From Hymenobacter puniceus (GTDB lineage Bacteria; Bacteroidota; Bacteroidia; Cytophagales; Hymenobacteraceae): DNA of 64,000 nt. The notes below the pieces were generated by a model, which made no database searches, was not told where the DNA came from, and saw nothing but the letters and a program-made list of their open reading frames with translations. The stretch's first letter is position 1. Every line of letters starts with the position of its first letter. Below, piece by piece: positions 2,512 to 51,590 of the stretch. Made by a program: the position numbers and the translations under genes. The DNA lies in contig NZ_JACSCX010000005.1 of assembly GCF_014333525.1 (NCBI RefSeq), forward strand, positions 186,001 through 250,000, read 5' to 3'.

Positions 2512-2547
2512 CTTACTCAGCTACTCAATTACTCAGTTACTCGTTAT
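2512..2547 (-). repeat. 8-nt stop-word array behind surE (GAGTAACT x4)
   Basis: Read on the minus strand, the surE stop TAA is followed directly by four degenerate copies of an 8-nt word: GAGTAACT, GAGTAATT, GAGTAGCT, GAGTAAGA. Because 8 is not a multiple of 3, TAA, TAG and TGA triplets fall in all three frames within about a dozen bases. Related words sit at the proC stop (13028-13044) and upstream of ribBA (about 12888-12904). Confidence 0.7.
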
Positions 2548-3413
2548 CCCAGTCCTCCGGCCGATTCGCCGGGCTCAGGAGACGCGCTGCCCAGGTGTGG
2601 GGCGGGGGCGGTTGATACTTCCAAACGCGGACCCAGCTGCCAACTGGCGTTCAGGCTGCTGATGGCGTGGTGGGCCGTGAGGTCGAACTGGCAGGGCACC
2701 ACCGATATGAAGTTGTTGGCCAGCGCCCACTCGTCGGTATCGGTACCCTGGTCGAGGTTCACGAACTCCCCGATCAGCCAATAGTACGGCCGCTTGTAGG
2801 GGTCGTGGCGCAAGTCGAACTCTTCCTGCCATTTGGCGCGGGCCTGGCGGCAGATGCGGATGCCCGCAATCGGCTGCTCCGACTTCTTGGGGATGTTCAC
2901 GTTCAGGGCCGTACCAGCCGGAATGCCGTGCGTTAGCGCCTCTCGCACAATGTGCTCCACCCAAGCTTCGGTGTGTTCAAAATCAGCGTTATGGCCGTAT
3001 TCGCACAGCGAAAACCCGATGGCCGGCAGCCCTTCGATGGCCGCCTCAATGGCCGCCGACATCGTGCCCGAGTACAGCACGTTCACCGAGGAGTTGGAGC
3101 CGTGGTTGATGCCCGATACCACCAGATCGGGCTGGCGGTCTTTCAGCACGTGGTGCTTGGCCAGCTTCACGCAGTCGGCTGGCGTGCCGCTGCACTCATA
3201 GCTTTCGATACCGGGGAAGATGGTGCTGGGGTCGAGGCGTAGCGAGGTGCCGATGGTGATGGCGTGGCCCATACCCGACTGCGGCGAGTTGGGCGCCACC
3301 ACCACTACCTCGCCGATGCGCCGCATGACGCGCACGAGCGTGGCAATGCCGGGCGCCGTGATGCCGTCGTCGTTGGAAATGAGAATCAGGGGTTTACGGG
3401 CAGTTTCAGACAC
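2544..3413 (-). CDS. surE: 5'/3'-nucleotidase SurE
   Basis: Survival protein SurE, a cytoplasmic metal-dependent nucleoside monophosphate phosphatase. Chosen start is GTG at 3413, giving VSETARKPLILISNDDGITA, the usual N-terminus; the frame is open further upstream but that stretch has no family resemblance. The metal-binding Asp pair is D15/D16 in SNDDG, the conserved PNSPQSGMGHAIT loop follows, and SGINHGSN supplies the conserved Asn. Length 289 aa is slightly above the usual 250-260 because of a Pro/Gly-rich tail. It is monocistronic and divergent from the lipoprotein gene at 3549. The stop codon sits inside a stop-word array. Confidence 0.95.
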   Translation of the reverse strand: MSETARKPLILISNDDGITAPGIATLVRVMRRIGEVVVVAPNSPQSGMGHAITIGTSLRLDPSTIFPGIESYECSGTPADCVKLAKHHVLKDRQPDLVVSGINHGSNSSVNVLYSGTMSAAIEAAIEGLPAIGFSLCEYGHNADFEHTEAWVEHIVREALTHGIPAGTALNVNIPKKSEQPIAGIRICRQARAKWQEEFDLRHDPYKRPYYWLIGEFVNLDQGTDTDEWALANNFISVVPCQFDLTAHHAISSLNASWQLGPRLEVSTAPAPHLGSASPEPGESAGGLG

Positions 3414-3548
3414 GATGCGAAAGAGTGTGGTGAACGAAGAGGACAACAAAGGTACACGCTTCCCTACGCGCCGCCCGGGCTTCGTGGCCGACATATTCAC
3501 CAGATTCTCCGCCTAGAGCAGCATCAACTACGGTGGCGATTCCGCCGT

Positions 3549-4781: not shown

Positions 4782-4886
4782 AAGAGTTAGGGCTTAGGGA
4801 CTAGGGCCTGGAGCTTAGGAAATATACGGGACCGTTGTGGCCTCTTTCTATCCTAAGCCCCAGACCCTAGTCCCTAAGCCCTAATA
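4782..4886. repeat. Inverted repeat of TTAGGG-like stop words
   Basis: Left arm with degenerate words AGTTAGGGC, TTAGGGACT, AGGGCCTGGAGCTTAGG (4787-4820); right arm CCTAAGCCCCAGACCCTAG, TCCCTAAGCCCTAA (4854-4886). It begins directly behind the DoxX stop TAG and ends 14 nt before the peptidase start. The left arm puts TAA/TAG triplets in all three frames within 30 nt of the stop codon. Confidence 0.75.
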
Positions 4887-6839: not shown

Positions 6840-7733
6840 ATGCCCATCCTCGAACTCGACAACCTTTCCAAAACCTACGGCAGCACCACGGCGCTGCGGG
6901 GCCTGACGCTGCAGGTGGAGCCGGGCAGTGTATATGGTCTACTGGGGCCGAACGGCAGCGGCAAAACCACCACGCTGGGCATTGCGCTGGGCGTGCTGCG
7001 GGCTTCGGGCGGGACGGTGCGCTGGTTTGGGCAGCCACCTACCTCGGCCGGGCGGCGGCGCATCGGGGCGCTGCTCGAAACACCCAACTTCTTCCCCTAC
7101 CTCTCGGCCCGCCAAAACCTGCAGCTGGCCGCCGACATCAAGCAAGCCGACCCGCGCAGCGTCGACCAGGCGCTGGATACTGTGGGGCTGGGCACGCGCC
7201 AGCACGATGCCTTCCGGGGCTTCTCGCTAGGCATGAAGCAGCGGCTGGCCCTGGCTTCCACCCTGCTCGGCAACCCCGAGGTGCTAGTGCTCGACGAACC
7301 CACCAATGGCCTCGATCCGCAAGGCATTGCCGAAGTGCGCGGCCTGGTGCAGCGCCTGGCGGCGGAAGGCAAAACCATCATCCTGGCTAGCCACCTGCTC
7401 GATGAAATCGAGAAGGTGTGCACCCACGTGGCAGTGCTGCAGCGCGGCGAGCTACGGGCGGCCGGGCCCGTCGGCAACATCTTGGCCACCGCCGACCGGG
7501 TGCTGCTGCGCCCCGAGCCGCAGGCTGCGGCCACCGTGCAGCAGGCCCTAGCTGCGCTGCCCTGGGTGTCGGACATACGTGCCGAAGCTGACGGCCAGCT
7601 TAGCGTGGCCCTCGCGCCCGGTCACGGCTCCGCCGACCTCAACCGCGCCCTGTTTGCCCAGAACATTGTCCTGGCCGGCCTGGAGTTGCGCCGCCGTAGC
7701 CTGGAGGCACAGTTCCTGGAACTGACGAAGTGA
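6840..7733 (+). CDS. ABC transporter ATP-binding protein
   Basis: 297-residue ATPase of the CcmA/GldA/BcrA type, which pairs with separate membrane subunits and is usually an exporter. Start is ATG 6840 (MPILELDNLSKTYG); an in-frame TTG upstream adds a non-conserved tail. Walker A GPNGSGKTT (36-44), ABC signature FSLGMKQR (about 128-135), Walker B VLVLDEP (148-154) and the switch His in LASHLLDE are all present, so it should hydrolyse ATP. The C-terminal about 80 residues are the usual regulatory extension. The permease follows at 7876. The gap holds an inverted repeat rather than tight coupling. Substrate unknown. Confidence 0.93.
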   Translation: MPILELDNLSKTYGSTTALRGLTLQVEPGSVYGLLGPNGSGKTTTLGIALGVLRASGGTVRWFGQPPTSAGRRRIGALLETPNFFPYLSARQNLQLAADIKQADPRSVDQALDTVGLGTRQHDAFRGFSLGMKQRLALASTLLGNPEVLVLDEPTNGLDPQGIAEVRGLVQRLAAEGKTIILASHLLDEIEKVCTHVAVLQRGELRAAGPVGNILATADRVLLRPEPQAAATVQQALAALPWVSDIRAEADGQLSVALAPGHGSADLNRALFAQNIVLAGLELRRRSLEAQFLELTK

Positions 7734-7875
7734 GGTGCTGATTTTTTGATATGCTGATGTGCTAATAATGCGTTGATTTTTTAATGAGTTAGACCAGCGC
7801 AGCACCAAAAACCAGCATTTCACCAACGCATCGAAAGACAGCACATTAACTCATTAAAAATCAGCACATCAAGAA
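7734..7875. repeat. Stop-word inverted repeat between ABC genes
   Basis: Fills the whole gap from the ATPase stop TGA to the permease ATG. The left arm combines words such as GTGCTGATTTTTTGAT, ATGCTGATGTGCT, AATGCGTTGATT and TTAATGAGTTAG; the right arm (about 7804-7872) carries the reverse complements in shuffled order (CCAACGCATCG, CAGCACATTAACTCATT, AAAAATCAGCACATC). Stops occur in all three frames within 27 nt of the ATPase stop. Confidence 0.75.
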
Positions 7876-8640
7876 ATGTTTTTTCGCGCCGAACTTCGCA
7901 AGATTCTTCCTTATCGTACTGTCTGGATTATTCTACTGGCTTACGCCGTACTGCTGCTGCTGTTTGTGGCGGCGGGCGGCAACCTGAACGTAAATGGCCA
8001 ACGCCTGGGCGAGTCGCTGTATGCGTTTCCGGGGCTGTGGGACAAGCTGAGCTACGTGGCCAGCTACTTCACCATGCTGCTGGGCATCCTGTTCATCATC
8101 CTGATTACCGACGAATTTCAGTTTCGCACGTTCCGGCAGCAGGTCATTGATGGCAGCTCGGTGGCAGGCTTGCTGCAGAATAAGCTGGCGGTATCGGGGC
8201 TGCTGGCGGGATTTGCGGTGCTGGTAGTGCTGGGCATCGGGGCATATTTTGGGCTGACGCGGGCGGCGGGTACGGTGGCACAGGCCGCGGGTGGTTTGCC
8301 GGCCGTGCTGCTCTACGGAGTGCAGGTGCTGGGGGTACTGGCGCTGGCCGCGCTGGTGGCCGTGCTGGTGCGCCGCAGCGGAGCCGCCATCCTGCTGTTT
8401 CTGCTGTATCTGTGGGTAGCCGAGCCGCTGCTGCGCCTGTCCCTGCCCGATGAGCTGGACCGCTACCTACCCGCCAAAATCTTCAACAGCCTCACGCCCA
8501 TGCCCGGGCAAGAGGTGCTGGCTACCGTCACGGGTCCTTCTGTAGCGCTGCTGCCCAGCCAGGCGTTGCCGCTGGCGCTGGCATATACGGCCCTGTTCTG
8601 GGGTTTGAGCTACCTGCTGCTGCGCAACCGGGATTTGTAA
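7876..8640 (+). CDS. ABC transporter permease
   Basis: 254-residue protein with about six hydrophobic helices, at roughly residues 17-33, 58-80, 102-122, 140-160, 165-185 and 225-248. The layout matches ABC-2 type permeases, with a long soluble stretch after helix one (NLNVNGQRLGESLYAFPGLW). It starts with MFFRAELRKILPYR, the characteristic short cytoplasmic lead of these subunits. The partner is surely the ATPase ending at 7733, and together they would form a homodimeric exporter. Substrate not determinable. Followed by a GTCAT-type repeat. Confidence 0.85.
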   Translation: MFFRAELRKILPYRTVWIILLAYAVLLLLFVAAGGNLNVNGQRLGESLYAFPGLWDKLSYVASYFTMLLGILFIILITDEFQFRTFRQQVIDGSSVAGLLQNKLAVSGLLAGFAVLVVLGIGAYFGLTRAAGTVAQAAGGLPAVLLYGVQVLGVLALAALVAVLVRRSGAAILLFLLYLWVAEPLLRLSLPDELDRYLPAKIFNSLTPMPGQEVLATVTGPSVALLPSQALPLALAYTALFWGLSYLLLRNRDL

Positions 8641-8644
8641 GGTT

Positions 8645-8835
8645 GCTGTCATTGCGAGAAGGTACGACATTCCGCGCATCAAGCGGCGTCAATCCTACCT
8701 TTAAAAGATGTGAGCGTCAACGCACAGCAAAGCCCTCCGGCATTGGTTTAGCACACTACTGCCGGAGGGCTTTGCTGTCAGGCCCCTGTCTGGTTATGAG
8801 AGGATGGATTGCTTTGCTCCGCTCGCAATGACAGC
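8645..8835. repeat. GCTGTCATTGCGAG composite inverted repeat with inner 19-bp stem
   Basis: Outer ends GCTGTCATTGCGAG (8645) and CTCGCAATGACAGC (8822-8835). Inside, ACAGCAAAGCCCTCCGGCA (8724-8742) and TGCCGGAGGGCTTTGCTGT (8760-8778) form a perfect 19-bp stem. The stretch around 8690-8720 is the inverse of 656-690. It sits between convergent genes ending at 8640 and 8844, so the stem may also terminate transcription. Confidence 0.85.
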
Positions 8836-8843
8836 GCCGCCAC

Positions 8844-12776: not shown

Positions 12777-12917
12777 GAATTGCAGATTTTGCAGATTATT
12801 AGGATTTCGCGGCGTATGGTTCCGGCCGGAACCGCGCGAAGCTGCTGCTACAACCAGCATCAGTGCCGCGAAGTTACGAGAGAGTGAGCGAGTAACTGAG
12901 TAGCCACGCGAATTAGC

Positions 12918-13023
12918 GTTCTGTCATCCTGAGCTTGCAAAGGACCTTATCACGCTTGGGAAGCTACTTGCCCAAGTTCGTGCAGCAGTGATAAGGTCCT
13001 TCGCAAGCTCAGGATGACAGAAC
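12918..13023. repeat. GTCATCCTGAGC hairpin repeat
   Basis: Ends GTTCTGTCATCCTGAGCTTGC (12918) and GCAAGCTCAGGATGACAGAAC (ending 13023) are exact inverted copies. They continue inward as AAGGACCTTATCACG / GTGATAAGGTCCTT with small mismatches; the loop is about 30 nt. It lies between ribBA and proC. Same end pattern as the GTCATGCTGAGC family but different inner words. Confidence 0.85.
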
Positions 13024-13041
13024 AATTACGCCTCAACTCAG

Positions 13042-13854
13042 CTACTCTTTCGCCAGCTCTTTGGCGCGTTGCTGGGCAGCTTTCATCCCGGCCTGCAAAG
13101 TTTCAGCCAGGCCACCGGCGCGGAATTCGCGCAGGGCGGCTTCGGTGGTGCCACCTTTGGAAGCCACGGCCGCAATCAGCTCGTCAGGGGTTTTGTCGGA
13201 GCTGTTGAGCAGGTGGTAGGCGCCCAGCATGGTTTGCTTCACCAGCAGCCCGGCCACCGACTCGGAGAAGCCCAGCTCGCGGCCCGCCTGCATCATGGCC
13301 TGCACGATGTAGTAGAAATACGCCGGGCCGCTGCCGCTCACAGCCGTCACGGCATCGAGCAGGCTTTCATCTTCCAGGAAAATCGACCGGCCGGTGGCAT
13401 TGAGCAGGTTCTCCACCTGATGCAGGCGGCTGCGCTCCACTTCCGGCGCCGCCGAAAACCCGGTGATTCCCAGCCCCAGCAGCGCCGGCGTGTTGGGCAT
13501 GGCGCGCATCACCTGCTGGTGGCTTAACTCGCGTTGCAACCGCCCGATGGTGATACCGGCCATAATGGACACCACCACCTGCCCGGGCAGCAGCACCGCC
13601 CGCAGTCCGGCGGCTATCTTACTGAAATCCTGCGGCTTCACAGCTACCATCACCACATCGTAGCTGCCCACGGGCGCTTTGAGCAGGCCGGTGGGCAGAC
13701 CCTGGTGGGTGGCGCCCAGCCGCTGGCAATGCGCCGCGTCGCGGCCGAGCAGCAGCAAATCGGCGTGCTCCACAAGGTTGTAGTGCAGAAACGCTTTGGC
13801 GAAGGCCATGCCCATGTTGCCGCAGCCCAGGATTGCAATGCGAAGAGGAGTCAT
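13042..13854 (-). CDS. proC: Pyrroline-5-carboxylate reductase
   Basis: 270-residue enzyme of the last proline biosynthesis step (reduction of P5C with NAD(P)H). Start ATG 13854 gives MTPLRIAILGCGNMGMAFAK, with the Rossmann GCGNMG at 9-14. The C-terminal substrate-binding signature AVTAVSGSGPAYFYYIVQAM and the conserved SKGGTTEAALREF are present. Length is typical. The frame upstream of the ATG is open but not conserved. The stop TAG is embedded in a GAGTAGCTGAGTTGAG word like the one behind surE. Confidence 0.96.
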   Translation of the reverse strand: MTPLRIAILGCGNMGMAFAKAFLHYNLVEHADLLLLGRDAAHCQRLGATHQGLPTGLLKAPVGSYDVVMVAVKPQDFSKIAAGLRAVLLPGQVVVSIMAGITIGRLQRELSHQQVMRAMPNTPALLGLGITGFSAAPEVERSRLHQVENLLNATGRSIFLEDESLLDAVTAVSGSGPAYFYYIVQAMMQAGRELGFSESVAGLLVKQTMLGAYHLLNSSDKTPDELIAAVASKGGTTEAALREFRAGGLAETLQAGMKAAQQRAKELAKE

Positions 13855-16847: not shown

Positions 16848-16944
16848 ACGTCATGCAGAGCGCAGCGAAGCATCTCGCTAGTGTAGCAATTAATAGCGCC
16901 ACAACCTCAGCACGCGAGATGCTTCGCTCTGCTCGGCATGACGT
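16848..16944. repeat. GTCATGC hairpin repeat, variant copy
   Basis: Ends ACGTCATGCAGAGCGCAGCG (16848) and CTCTGCTCGGCATGACGT (to 16944) with inner words GAAGCATCTCGC / GCGAGATGCTTCGC. It lies upstream of the glycosyltransferase start and behind the K+ channel gene, so it separates two minus-strand units. Confidence 0.8.
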
Positions 16945-16969
16945 TCTAGATAATCTACCATCACCACTG

Positions 16970-17986: not shown

Positions 17987-18162
17987 TTTTTCAATTAAAA
18001 ATTGCGAATTAAAAATTAAAAATGGGGGCTTTAGACTGGCTGTTATGACAAACCAAAAATCGAGAAATAAGCGAGACTTTCGAGGCGCAACAACGACTGC
18101 ACGAAATTAGCCAGCCACGCAATTTTTAATTTTTAATTTTTAATTCTTAATTTTTAGTTGAA
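17987..18162. repeat. AT-rich stop-word inverted repeat between dnaG and the K+ channel
   Basis: The gap between the dnaG stop (18163) and the channel ATG (17986) is one inverted repeat. Arms are made of 7-nt words: TCAATTAAAAATTGCGAATT then AAAAATTAAAAAT (17991-18024), and AATTTTTAATTTTTAATT with TTTAATTCTTAATTTTTAG (18119-18157). On the minus strand TAA triplets in all three frames follow the dnaG stop within about 25 nt. The A-rich end (TTGAAAAA before ATG) may serve as the ribosome binding region of the channel gene. A sister element lies at 51469-51590. Confidence 0.85.
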
Positions 18163-20517: not shown

Positions 20518-21531
20518 CTACCCCAGCAACGGCTTCACCCGCTCGCCCAGCAGCTCAATAGCGCGGAGCATCTTTTCGGGGGCCAGGTCGGCGTTGTCCA
20601 TCTGGAACGTGACGCGGCTCACGCCGCCCAGCGACTCGGCGTGGCGCAGAATCTTGGCAGCTACTTCCTCGGGGTTGCCGACCAACAGCGCGCCACGGGG
20701 TCCACGCTGGGCCTCGAAGTGGCCGGGCGTGACGGGCGGCCAGCCCCGCTCCCGCCCGATGCGAGTGAACGTGCGGGCATAGCCGGGGTAATAGTCGGCC
20801 ACGGCCTGCTCGCTGGTTTCGGCAACGTAGCCTAGGGAGTGCAAACCCACCTGCAACTGCTCGGGCGCGAAGCCGGCTTTCCGGCCAGCTTCCCGGTATA
20901 AATCGACCAGCGGCCGGAAACGGTGGGTTTCGCCACCGATGATGGCCACCATCAGCGGCAGTCCCATGGCCCCAGCCCGCACAAACGACTCGGGCGTGCC
21001 GCCCACGCCGCGCCAAATGGGCAGCTGCGCCTGCATGGGCCGCGGGTACACGGCCTGCCCCGTGAGGGCCGGCCGGAACCGGCCGGACCAGCTCACCTGC
21101 TCCTGGTCGCGGATCTGAAGCAGCAACGCCAGCTTTTCCTCGAACAGGGCGTCGTAGTCGTGCAGGTTGAGGCCGAAAAGTGGGAAGGCCTCGGTGAAGG
21201 AGCCGCGGCCCACCACCAGCTCGGCCCGGCCGTGGCTGAGCAAATCGAGGGTGGCAAACTGCTGGAACACGCGCACCGGATCGGCGGCGCTGAGCACGGC
21301 TACGGCGCTGCCCAGCCGGATACGTTGGGTGAGAGCCGCCGCCGCGCCCAGAATCACGGCCGGGGCTGAGTCGAGAAACTCGCGGCGGTGGTGCTCACCG
21401 ATGCCGAAGAAATCCAGGCCCACCTGGTCGGCCCGCTCGATGCGCTCCAGGAGCTGGCGCAGGGCCGTGGCGTTGTCGGAGGCGGTGCCACCCGTAGGGG
21501 CCGCGGCGAAGCTGTCGATTCCAAGCTGCAT
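20518..21531 (-). CDS. LLM class flavin-dependent oxidoreductase
   Basis: 337-residue bacterial-luciferase-like flavin oxidoreductase with a TIM-barrel fold. Visible family features: MQLGIDSFAAA at the N-terminus, FFGIGEHHRREFLDSAPAVIL (the usual GEHH motif), RIRLGSAVAVLSAADPVRVFQQFATLDLLSHGRAELVVGRGS, and the C-terminal VGNPEEVAAKIL block. Such enzymes use FMNH2 or F420H2 and oxygen; the substrate cannot be inferred. Single gene between a hairpin repeat and a complex palindromic region; a GTTGTCC-type word array begins 6 bp upstream of its ATG. Confidence 0.92.
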   Translation of the reverse strand: MQLGIDSFAAAPTGGTASDNATALRQLLERIERADQVGLDFFGIGEHHRREFLDSAPAVILGAAAALTQRIRLGSAVAVLSAADPVRVFQQFATLDLLSHGRAELVVGRGSFTEAFPLFGLNLHDYDALFEEKLALLLQIRDQEQVSWSGRFRPALTGQAVYPRPMQAQLPIWRGVGGTPESFVRAGAMGLPLMVAIIGGETHRFRPLVDLYREAGRKAGFAPEQLQVGLHSLGYVAETSEQAVADYYPGYARTFTRIGRERGWPPVTPGHFEAQRGPRGALLVGNPEEVAAKILRHAESLGGVSRVTFQMDNADLAPEKMLRAIELLGERVKPLLG

Positions 21532-21537
21532 GGTGGT

Positions 21538-21568
21538 GAGTTGTCCGTTGTTAGTTGTCCGTTGTCAG
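21538..21568. repeat. GTTGTCCGTTGTTAG word array
   Basis: Degenerate short words GAGTTGTCC, GTTGTTA, GTTGTCC, GTTGTCAG in tandem, starting 6 bp before the start of the luciferase-like gene on the minus strand. Only one arm is visible. It resembles in style, but not sequence, the stop-word arrays elsewhere in the window. Confidence 0.6.
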
Positions 21569-21602
21569 GGCTAAAGCTACGGCCTGCCGGGCAACTGGCG
21601 GT

Positions 21603-21654
21603 TCGCTGAACGATGTAGAGACGCGACACTTCGCGTCTCTACATCGTTCAGCGA
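21603..21654. repeat. Perfect 24-bp hairpin, GTAGAGACGCGA family
   Basis: Arms 21603-21626 and 21631-21654 are perfectly complementary over 24 bp (core GATGTAGAGACGCGA), with a 4-nt CACT loop. A shorter second copy with GAGACGCGA / TCGCGTCTC arms and an AGTG loop lies at 21691-21712. Confidence 0.85.
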
Positions 21655-21736
21655 CCGGGGCCACACCGACTAAACAACGTCAGCAACAACGAGACGCGAA
21701 GTGTCGCGTCTCTACGCCGTTCATCGGCTCAGAACG

Positions 21737-21828
21737 GCAGTAGCGCGAACTTTGTAGTTCGCGTCCCTACACCGTTGCAACAACTCCAGCGGCGCGGGGA
21801 CGCAAACTACAAAGTTCGCGCTACTGCT
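21737..21828. repeat. GCAGTAGCGCGAACTTTGTAG inverted repeat
   Basis: Left arm GCAGTAGCGCGAACTTTG with TAGTTCGCGTCCC from 21737; right arm GGGACGCAAACTACAAAG and TTCGCGCTACTGC to 21828. Together with the two preceding hairpins it fills the 304-bp gap 21532-21835, in which I see no gene. Confidence 0.75.
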
Positions 21829-21835
21829 GCCGGGG

Positions 21836-23287: not shown

Positions 23288-24391
23288 ATGGAACCCATTA
23301 CCAAAGAAGCCGTCCTCAAGGCCCTGAGCTACGTGGAGGAGCCCGATCTGGGCAAAGACCTCGTGACGCTCAACATGATTGAGGACGTGCAGATTGACGG
23401 CCGCCGCGTGTCGTTCACGGTGGTGCTCACCACGCCCGCCTGCCCCCTCAAACAGCTCATCCACGACGCCTGCGAGCGGGCCATCCACACGATGGTGGAC
23501 AAGGACGCCGAGGTGGTGATTGTGATGACCTCGCGCGTGACCACCATGCGCCAGAACCGCGACCTGCTGCCCGGCGTGAAAAATATCATTGCCATTGCCT
23601 CGGGCAAGGGCGGCGTGGGTAAAAGCACCGTCACGGCCAACCTGGCCATTGCCCTGGCCAAAACCGGCGCCAAAGTGGGCCTCGTCGATGCTGATATCAG
23701 CGGCCCCAGCATGCCCCTCATGTTCGGCGTGATGGACGAGCGGCCCCACGTATTTCAGGGCCCGGATGGCAAAAACCTCATTCAGCCGGTGGTAGCCCAC
23801 GGCGTAAAGCTGATGAGCATCGGCTTCCTGGCCCCGGCCGAATCGGCCATTGTGTGGCGCGGCCCGATGGCCTCCTCAGCCCTCAAGCAGTTCATCACAG
23901 AAGTGGACTGGGGCGAGCTGGACTACCTGCTACTCGACATGCCTCCCGGAACCTCCGACATCCACCTCACCATGGTACAGACGGTGCCCGTTACCGGCTC
24001 ACTCATCGTGACCACGCCCCAGAAAGTAGCCCTGGCCGACGCCGAAAAGGGCCTGCAGATGTTCCGCCTGCCGCAAATCAACGTGCCGGTGCTGGGCATC
24101 GTGGAGAACATGGCCTGGTTTACGCCTGCCGAGCTGCCCGACAACAAGTACTTCATCTTTGGAGAAGGCGGCGGCGTGGCCTTGGCCGAAAAGCACCAGG
24201 TGCCGCTGCTGGGCCAGATTCCGCTGGTGCAAACCATCCGCGAAAACGGCGACCAAGGTACGCCTGCCATCTTGCAGGAAAACACGCCGGCCGCTGAAGT
24301 ATTCGCCCAGCTGGCCGAGGAGCTGGCCCGCCAGGTCAGTATCCGCAACGCCGTAGCCCCGAAAACCAACATCGTGGAAATGAAGTCCTAA
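23288..24391 (+). CDS. apbC: Mrp/NBP35-family iron-sulfur carrier ATPase
   Basis: 367-residue P-loop ATPase that carries Fe-S clusters to target proteins. Start ATG 23288 (MEPITKEAVLKALSYVEEPD); the upstream extension is not conserved. An N-terminal MIP18/DUF59 domain (1-85) is followed by the deviant Walker A GKGGVGKST (106-114) and the Mrp pattern GLVDADISGPSMPLMFG and LLLDMPPGTSDIHLT. The usual CxxC in the ENM(S/A) loop is replaced by ENMAWFTPAELPDNKY, so the classic cluster-binding Cys pair is absent. It is upstream of a NifU-like protein, supporting a role in Fe-S maturation. Confidence 0.92.
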   Translation: MEPITKEAVLKALSYVEEPDLGKDLVTLNMIEDVQIDGRRVSFTVVLTTPACPLKQLIHDACERAIHTMVDKDAEVVIVMTSRVTTMRQNRDLLPGVKNIIAIASGKGGVGKSTVTANLAIALAKTGAKVGLVDADISGPSMPLMFGVMDERPHVFQGPDGKNLIQPVVAHGVKLMSIGFLAPAESAIVWRGPMASSALKQFITEVDWGELDYLLLDMPPGTSDIHLTMVQTVPVTGSLIVTTPQKVALADAEKGLQMFRLPQINVPVLGIVENMAWFTPAELPDNKYFIFGEGGGVALAEKHQVPLLGQIPLVQTIRENGDQGTPAILQENTPAAEVFAQLAEELARQVSIRNAVAPKTNIVEMKS

Positions 24392-24416
24392 CTGGCGTAA
24401 CGACGGAGTAGATAGA

Positions 24417-24536
24417 CCGTCATGCTGAGCGAAGCGGAGCGGAGTCGAAGCATCTCTACCGCTTCGTTTCAATGCTATCAATTAGCCGGAGGTAGAGATG
24501 CTTCGACTGCGGCTCCGCCTTCGCTCAGCATGACGG
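24417..24536. repeat. GTCATGCTGAGC hairpin repeat, copy between Mrp and NifU
   Basis: Left arm CCGTCATGCTGAGCGAAGCG with GGAGTCGAAGCATCTCTACC (24417-24460); right arm GGTAGAGATGCTTCGACTGC and GGCTCCGCCTTCGCTCAGC with ATGACGG (24491-24536). The rest of the 306-bp gap 24392-24697 holds a -7 box at 24622 and no gene. Confidence 0.85.
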
Positions 24537-24621
24537 GCAATTTCTCACGTTCTCCGTAGCTATGTTCCCCCTGAACTTCTCCCCGCTCCGGCCGGTTTAC
24601 TGTAGCGTCGGCTGAATGTTC

Positions 24622-24629
24622 TACCTTTG
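24622..24629 (+). promoter_or_regulatory. TAnnTTTG box upstream of the NifU-like gene
   Basis: TACCTTTG, an exact -7 consensus, 68 nt before the ATG at 24698 and directly behind the repeat. It suggests the NifU-like gene has its own promoter rather than depending on the Mrp gene. The -33 region (TTTACTG) is only a weak match. Confidence 0.4.
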
Positions 24630-24697
24630 CTTTTGTATTGCCGACGCTGGCTTACGCTTTCCGGCCCAACCAGCGTACAACCCGTGAAATTCCCGTT

Positions 24698-27576: not shown

Positions 27577-28860
27577 ATGGCTAACCCCAACGACCCCGCC
27601 CTGCATTCCTGGATTGATATTGCCCCCGGCAGCGACTTTCCCATTCAGAACCTGCCCTTCGGCGTGTTTGAGACAGAGGAGCGCGGACCGCGGCTGGGCG
27701 TGGCCATTGGCGAGTATGTACTGGATCTGTACGCCGTGGCCCAGTTCGGTTTTTTCGATGACCTGGATTTAGGCGCCAAGATGCCCAAGGTGTTCCGCCG
27801 CCGCTCGCTCAACCAGTTCATTGCCCTGGGCCGGCCGGCGTGGCGGGCCGTGCGCCAGCGCGTCTCAGAGCTGCTGCGCCACGACAGCACCGCGCTCCGC
27901 TCGGATGAGGTGATGCGCGAGTGTCTGCTGCGCCAGCGCGAGGTGCGGATGCTGCGCCCCGTGAAGCCCCACAACTACACCGATTTCTACAGCAGCATCG
28001 AGCACGCCACCAACGTGGGCATCATGTTCCGCGACCCGGCCAACGCGCTGCTGCCCAACTGGCGGCACATTCCCATCGGCTACCACGGCCGGGCCAGCAG
28101 CATTGTGGTGAGCGGCACCGATATCCGCCGGCCCAACGGGCAGCGCAAGGCGCCCGATGCTGCCGCGCCCACCTTCGGACCGTCGCAGCAGCTGGACTTC
28201 GAGCTGGAAGTGGGCTTCATCGTGGGCCAGGGCACGCACCTTGGCGACACCGTGCCGATTCAGCATGCCGAGGACCACATCTTCGGGCTGGTGCTGTTCA
28301 ACGACTGGAGCGCGCGCGACATTCAGAGCTGGGAGTACGTGCCGCTGGGGCCGTTTCTGGGCAAGAGCTTCGGCAGCAGCATGTCGGCGTGGGTAGTCAC
28401 GCTGGACGCGCTGGAGCCGTTTCGGGTGGCCGGGCCGGTGCAGGAGCCCGAGCCGCTGCTGTATCTGCGCCAGCTGGATAAGCACAATTTCGATGTACAC
28501 CTGGAAGTGGAGCTGCAGCCTGAGAACGGCCCCGCCACCACCATTTCGCGCTCCAACTTTGGGCTCATGTACTGGAGCATGGCCCAGCAGCTAACCCACC
28601 AGGCCTCCAACGGCTGCAACCTGCAGGTCGGTGACCTGTACGCCTCAGGTACCATCTCGGGGGCCACGCCCGACTCATTGGGCTCGATGCTGGAGCTGGC
28701 CTGGCGCGGCACCCGCCCTGTGCCCCTGGCCGACGGCTCGGAGCGCAAGTTTCTGCTCGATGGCGACACCGTGACCATGCGCGGCTACTGCGAAAAAGAC
28801 GGCCTGCGCATCGGTTTCGGCGAAGTGACGGGCAAAGTGCTGCCCGCGCCGGTGGTGTAG
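27577..28860 (+). CDS. fahA: Fumarylacetoacetase
   Basis: 427-residue last enzyme of tyrosine/phenylalanine degradation (4-fumarylacetoacetate to fumarate and acetoacetate). An N-terminal SH3-like domain is followed by the FAH beta-roll. Catalytic and metal residues are visible: D136 and H143 in YTDFYSSIEHATNVG, Glu residues in DFELEVGFIVG, and Asp in VLFNDWSARDIQSWEYVP followed by GPFLGKSF. Length is typical of the two-domain enzyme. Monocistronic; no other tyrosine pathway genes in the window. Upstream TACCTTTA at about 27542 is a near match to the -7 box. Confidence 0.96.
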   Translation: MANPNDPALHSWIDIAPGSDFPIQNLPFGVFETEERGPRLGVAIGEYVLDLYAVAQFGFFDDLDLGAKMPKVFRRRSLNQFIALGRPAWRAVRQRVSELLRHDSTALRSDEVMRECLLRQREVRMLRPVKPHNYTDFYSSIEHATNVGIMFRDPANALLPNWRHIPIGYHGRASSIVVSGTDIRRPNGQRKAPDAAAPTFGPSQQLDFELEVGFIVGQGTHLGDTVPIQHAEDHIFGLVLFNDWSARDIQSWEYVPLGPFLGKSFGSSMSAWVVTLDALEPFRVAGPVQEPEPLLYLRQLDKHNFDVHLEVELQPENGPATTISRSNFGLMYWSMAQQLTHQASNGCNLQVGDLYASGTISGATPDSLGSMLELAWRGTRPVPLADGSERKFLLDGDTVTMRGYCEKDGLRIGFGEVTGKVLPAPVV

Positions 28861-28885
28861 GACTTTCCTGCTTTAAAAAACCTGT

Positions 28886-28934
28886 CTGAAAAGCTGGCGG
28901 CTGCCCTTGCGAGGATGGGCCGACAGCTTTTCAG
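28886..28934. terminator. Hairpin between convergent fahA and glpD
   Basis: Perfect 11-bp arms CTGAAAAGCTG (28886-28896) and CAGCTTTTCAG (28924-28934), located between the fahA stop and the glpD stop. The right arm overlaps the 3' end of glpD, so the stem likely terminates both genes. Confidence 0.7.
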
Positions 28935-51468: not shown

Positions 51469-51590
51469 TTTTTTCAATTAAAAATTGAGAATTAAAAATT
51501 AAAAATCGAGACCATTGCACTTACACAACTCATTCGGAGAAAAGGGTTTCAGGCAATTTTTAATTTTTAATTCTCAATTTTTAATTCCCT
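51469..51590. repeat. AT-rich stop-word inverted repeat between tsaE and ald
   Basis: Left arm TTCAATTAAAAATTGAGAATT with AAAAATTAAAAAT (51473-51506), right arm AATTTTTAATTTTTAATTCT with CAATTTTTAATTCC (51557-51588). It is the sister of the element at 17987-18162. The last five residues and stop of tsaE (51567) lie inside the right arm, and the ald ATG follows the left arm end directly. Confidence 0.85.

Follow-up and report, generated by a model that had tools for sequence, protein, structure and literature searches.

Intergenic repeats built of short words were recognized decades ago in cyanobacteria, with no agreement so far on their function or origin. A search of the literature on Hymenobacter repeats found nothing relevant, and the nearest known kinds for the array described here, at the end of the surE gene of Hymenobacter puniceus, are the cyanobacterial STRR and, closest of all, the P6b stem in the tRNA-Leu(UAA) intron of Nostoc. 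The P6b stem is made of degenerate heptanucleotides, TDNGATT in Class I and NNTGAGT in Class II (PMC4476775, PMC3488679). As in the arrays described here, both sides of the stem consist of degenerate short words, Class II holds the same TGAGT core, the region has repeatedly been replaced by the other word class, and extra stem-loops have been inserted inside it. However, P6b is a single locus in a group I intron with a 7-nt period, whereas the Hymenobacter arrays are found at many intergenic loci, have an 8-nt period (GAGTARYT) and lie flush with coding ends.

PMC2670836 describes STRR as 7-bp, hairpin-forming repeats of unknown function. STRR and the “structured” intergenic regions (PMC2670836, PMC2408588) are intergenic, hairpin-forming tandem arrays of 7-nt words, and three Nostoc words given in PMC2408588 (Table 3), ttgtcagttgtcagttgtca, ttgttagttgttag and attgcgaattgcgaattg, are identical to words of this genome. 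The word arrays of Hymenobacter are likewise intergenic and multi-copy, are made of tandem words of about 7 nt (families include GAGTARYT, AATTAAA, TTAGGGC and GTTGTYAG), and are predicted from RNA folds to form hairpins by word pairing. They differ in that pairs are the rule, while the GTTGTYAG arrays of one cyanobacterial genome, judged by eye, lie mostly on one strand only; the consulted passages of the two STRR papers do not mention a position flush with gene ends.

Two other kinds of element share some of these features. REP/REPIN with RAYT (PMC3116915, PMC3733652) are dispersed extragenic inverted pairs that form hairpins, and CGTC and GTAG REP-like pairs share intergenic regions with the word arms, often nested inside them. 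Unlike REPINs, the word arms are not palindromes (GAGTARYT arms, read by eye, have no inverted repeat of their own), carry no GTAG or CGTC tags, do not lie beside RAYT genes and are flush with coding sequence instead of set back; neither an arm in the form of a tagged palindrome nor a RAYT gene flanked by the same repeat was found. MITEs are non-autonomous, intergenic and bounded by terminal inverted repeats in fixed orientation, all as here, but the word elements have no conserved interior, and target site duplications, clean empty sites and a partner transposon were not seen.

A simple minisatellite or VNTR, that is, a single uniform array, fails as a description here since the arrays are paired, though it holds elsewhere in GTDB. 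Genomes scattered over many phyla contain the exact 8-nt word, there mostly as one uniform VNTR: 86 of 94 matches lacked a mate, in a search whose pattern favors perfect arrays. The array was also found on a Hymenobacter crusticola scaffold. In a Bacteroidaceae MAG and in Segatella copri (L228, L252), the same words are paired facing outward.

Many Hymenobacter species have been sequenced, and the position, orientation and turnover of the inverted pairs can be measured among them. Should the pairs move or be rewritten as whole units, new stop codons, C-terminal tails and signal peptides would come from them, and the unrelated look of intergenic regions in sister species would be partly explained. 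The stop-word property offers a testable reason for the survival of only certain words beside genes.

The surE array and other elements of the window

The window is the whole 64,000-nt stretch of DNA that was analyzed. The surE coding sequence lies on its minus strand (2544–3446, with the start uncertain, at 3446 or 3500); Pfam confirmed the identities of surE, proC and ribBA. The gene ends GGA-TAA, with TAA at 2546–2544, and this stop is followed on the minus strand by C and then four 8-nt words, GAGTAACT GAGTAATT GAGTAGCT GAGTAAGA, reaching 2512. TRF reported a period of 8 with 4.4 copies at 2513–2546. The array thus starts exactly at the surE stop, as an earlier note on this DNA had read it. 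What that note missed is that the array (2512–2546, minus strand) is only the right arm of a pair. The left arm, GAGAGTAGCGGAGTAA, is an inverted partner on the plus strand at 2344–2359, and its last TAA (2357–2359) is the stop of a small convergent ORF at 2156–2359. Aligned as GAGTAGCGGAGTAAATAGCCCACAGT / GAGTAGCTGAGTAAGATTGCCCAGAGT, the arms have an inverted-repeat score of 16.9. The interior, 2360–2511, has a terminator-like hairpin made of AAGCCGCG..CGCGGCTTT.

The same is true of two words near proC and ribBA, which were correctly placed in the earlier note, one over the proC stop and the other upstream of ribBA, but listed there as separate features. They are the two arms of one element. 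The left arm, GAGTAACTGAGTAG, is upstream of ribBA at 12890–12903 on the plus strand, and the right arm, GAGTAGCTGAGTTGAG, at 13034–13048 on the minus strand, provides the proC stop (GAG TAG, 13042–13044). Nested within the element at 12918–13023 is an inverted pair of the REP-like repeat TTCTGTCATCCTGAGCTTGCAAAGGACCTTATCAC, a family present at many loci in a survey of inverted repeats. Four elements were folded as RNA, and all gave negative z scores, in part from nested REPs: −5.1 for the whole surE element (2343–2546), −12.8 for the proC/ribBA element, and −11.5 and −9.2 for the others.

Arrays of 7-nt words in the window have the same inverted-pair architecture. A TTAGGGC element at 4787–4884 has arms at 4787–4819 and 4852–4884. 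Two AATTAAA elements are found at 17990–18160 (arms 17993–18023 and 18121–18156) and at 51474–51586 (arms 51476–51506 and 51555–51586, with 31 nt of perfect complementarity). The inverted-repeat survey added an element of 8-nt words, ATGTGCTG, at 7731–7872. No Rfam family scored above its gathering score in the window. The stretch 21531–21835 contains a GTTGTC/GTTGTTAG array, for which no mate was found, and after it GTAG-REP pairs of two kinds; GTTGTC/GTTGTTAG words and an agacgcga..tcgcgtct palindrome have been published for Nostoc 7120 (PMC2408588).

Abundance, orientation and position of the word pairs

In 864 kb of this genome there are 12 matches to the pattern GAGTARnnGAGTAR, while order-1 simulations gave 0, 0, 0, 0 and 1. 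A three-word pattern with up to 3 mismatches was found 43 times in the whole genome (4.86 Mb), compared to 6 times for a reversed control. A plus-strand array match is typically followed by a minus-strand match 60–200 bp further on. All 13 of the GAGTARYT elements examined (11 loci that were read and the two in the window, with four weaker single matches left aside) are inward-facing inverted pairs, with the stop-rich strand inward. Among GTTGTYAG arrays, 20 have an inward mate, none an outward one, and 10 are single.

Inverted repeats that run from edge to edge of an intergenic region, at a score of at least 15 and with edges from a home-made gene caller, were found in 101 of 568 intergenic regions (18%). 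The controls were below 1%: pairing with an edge of a different region gave 2, and testing for direct repeats gave 4. Such repeats were present between 40 of 106 convergent, 57 of 364 tandem and 4 of 98 divergent gene pairs. Across 14 genomes of the genus they were found in 194 of 1059 regions, which fell into rough sequence classes: 40 word arrays, 78 REP-like pairs (a CGTC type, GTCATTCCGAGC..GGAATCTC, and a GTAG type, GTAGCGCGAACTTTGTAGTTCGCG) and 76 others, including terminators. Arrays with a period below 9 mostly had periods of 7 (36) or 8 (10), the latter being the period of the surE family. Within a genome one degenerate word is found at many loci, and the word families differ between genomes. 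These survey numbers rest on a home-made gene caller, a single genome for each species, sampled parts of the genomes and rough classes, and the family counts are small.

The arms are flush with coding sequence. At gene 3’ ends, all 18 GAGTARYT arms (including loci of genomes G059, G074 and G078) begin between −21 and +9 nt from the stop, where negative values mean that the stop lies within the array. Counting all word families together, the start falls within −25 to +5 of the stop for 37 of 45 arms at 3’ ends; the median is −2 nt, measured from the end of the stop. REP pairs lie further off, with a median of +11 and 40 of 99 beyond 15. Arms at gene starts are often 2–5 nt off the ATG or run into the ORF.

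Some arms are translated. In comparisons with a sister species (G002) and an outgroup (G007), translated by eye, arms form the C-termini WRVAE* (WLTR* in the outgroup), KHKRVIE* (KHKRPVSEPVS*) and VIE* (VVV*). A lipoprotein signal peptide, MPKHLTQLLRCSVTLCAVGAAGC, is encoded by a word arm inside the ORF (L006:1492–1700; G000:C12:301691–301880); the sister species has a variant of it, and the outgroup has the unrelated MPDLLPPALSARRRSRMVGGGLAVGAVLAGC.

Turnover between species and evidence on mobility

The sister genome has about 90% identity in the flanking coding DNA. It retains the pair at most GAGTARYT loci, with changed word numbers and interiors. At E11 it has a GTGAGAGGTGAG pair in place of GAGTARYT, and at 51.5 kb in the window it has AATTAGT where this genome has AATTAAA. 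Near position 354 there is GAGTAAC in the sister and a REP pair here, while near 8640 the sister has a GCCCCAGCGGGGC REP and this genome another REP pair. In further relatives the surE stop is met by flush inverted 8-nt arrays of a different word, GTGANNTT. In the outgroup no such array was found genome-wide at one mismatch, and these loci have a plain terminator or nothing. REP-like pairs at 354–717, 8640–8843, 16854–16969 and 24391–24637 of the window have other repeat pairs at the same gene borders in the sister.

Partner arms have a mean similarity of 21.9 to each other and 17.4 to arms of other loci, and for 7 of 26 arms the best match is the partner; as partner arms are only moderately more alike, a common birth of the two is not proven. 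Similarity is about the same between orthologous arms (22.4) as between the two arms of one locus (22.1), and regions without inverted repeats align better (27.4). Concerted evolution of arms is therefore not indicated. Restoration of operon spacing by looping out was also discarded, because the outgroup has gaps of 65–145 bp at several loci without an element.

No Y1/RAYT transposase gene (PF01797) was found in this genome, although 73 of 101 genomes of the genus have one. At 20 Y1/RAYT-like loci of relatives there were no word arrays beside the gene, only other palindromes or none. Comparison of this genome with the sister and the outgroup gave no target duplication or simple empty site; the regions differ by replacement. 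RAYT insertion targeted to GTAG at G-TAG stops was rejected, since only 1 of 16 and 1 of 12 GTAG-REP copies use a gene stop and there is no Y1 gene here. REPs are nonetheless present in this genome without such a gene.

Many Hymenobacter Y1/RAYT-like genes have their own palindromic repeat on both sides (L166–L185), and the repeat beside one such locus in the sister (L167) resembles the sister repeat that replaces this genome’s at 8640. In the sister counterpart of window positions 28860–28930, a GTAG-REP pair absent here directly follows, on the 3’ side, the GTAG that arises at the stop GTG-TAG; on sequence grounds it resembles a clean insertion at this stop.

Stops in three frames and the origin of the pairs

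Stops in all three frames are present in 64% of inward word arms at gene 3’ ends, compared to 22% of the same arms read outward and 17% of shuffled words; ordinary sequence after stops has such coverage in 4.5% of cases. The frame coverage is thus well above that of random words and of base composition, as the earlier note had supposed. The association with stop codons was upheld in part: the arms do lie at or over stops, but stop coverage is not special to 3’ ends, reaching 49% for inward arms at gene 5’ edges. Because the two arms of a pair are not independent, these counts overstate the evidence. Since an arm replacing the last codons of a gene is viable only with a stop, an inward bias of stops is expected from survival alone. 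The three-frame stops are a real property, probably a condition for survival at gene ends and not the purpose of the array.

With moderate confidence, the surE array is taken as one of the two arms of a fold-back element of short words, dispersed among intergenic regions, which is a variant of a kind already known but little understood. In such an element, two arrays of one degenerate word, here the 8-nt TGAGTARY, face inward across the intergenic space, flush with coding sequence on one or both sides. The facing arms can fold together as a long DNA or RNA hairpin, and an RNA hairpin may form in the cell. The interior is variable, often with nested REP-type palindromes or a terminator. The arrays would spread to gene borders, or be replaced there, as pairs. 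The inward strand has stops in every frame and the outward strand of the TGAGTARY word none; an arm overwriting last codons would then supply a new stop, and one overwriting first codons would leave the gene open. Pairs could persist at gene borders because of these two properties, with the three-frame stops acting as a survival filter and backup termination as a by-product. Against this, no transposase was found linked to the word arrays, no clean insertion with a target duplication was found, and a flush fit on both sides is odd for a randomly inserted element. A more specific form, considered unlikely, is a distinct fold-back class of stop-bearing words only, which a dedicated process would set precisely at coding boundaries, rewriting protein ends (stops, C-terminal tails, a signal peptide), and which would be exchanged wholesale for other word families between sister species.

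The pairs might instead arise locally, with an array expanding by slippage at a gene end, an inverted copy made by template switching in a quasi-palindrome, and the hairpin renewed in place. Template switching is known to give rise to hairpins and to mend them (PMC8794818), change at fixed places is rapid, and some arms at E11, E12 and E2 share locus-specific word order and inner sequence. However, the same degenerate words are found at many loci and the families differ between genomes, so dispersal is needed, and with orthologous and paired arms about equally similar, no strong homogenization is seen; local origin is judged quite improbable. An equally low probability is given to a functional 3’-end structure, in which an RNA hairpin starting at the stop codon would protect the transcript, end transcription or couple the stop to the next start. 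The predicted folds are stable, pairs are rarest between divergent genes, the Nostoc trnL intron uses word-built stems (PMC4476775), and STRR hairpins were proposed to stabilize transcripts or couple translation (PMC2670836). Yet the word arrays themselves are equally frequent between tandem (31 of 683) and convergent (7 of 189) genes, and the outgroup does with a plain terminator or nothing at the same loci.

In the earlier note the array was taken for a minisatellite that originated in, or was selected at, the stop codon, possibly to catch read-through and frameshifted ribosomes. The start of the arrays at the stop, the excess of three-frame stops over shuffled words, and the usual inward direction of the stop strand in families with stops on one strand only all agree with this. 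So does E10, where this genome no longer has the first array stop, and the next one closes the frame two codons further on (CVESN*, compared to CVE* in the sister); going by the reading frame, E10 is a natural case of an array stop that would act as backup. But every array examined has an inverted partner, including those near gene starts. In tandem gene pairs the partner lies near the start of the next gene, where stops are useless, with coverage nearly as high, which argues against ribosome catching. One word is dispersed over many loci, at others the words have stops on both strands, some loci swap families between sister species, and most genes do without an array. This origin is therefore regarded as very unlikely, and the dispersed fold-back element remains the preferred reading.

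Two minor features of the arms were also seen. Edge-to-edge pairs of CACGGATTAACGCGGATT-like words form another gene-end-flush family (L033:3664–3828, L043:6705–6862, L054:9437–9663). The inner ends of word arms are often GTTCTG..CAGAAC (L003, L024, L028, window position 12918, and L129 of the sister), possibly a common core hairpin.
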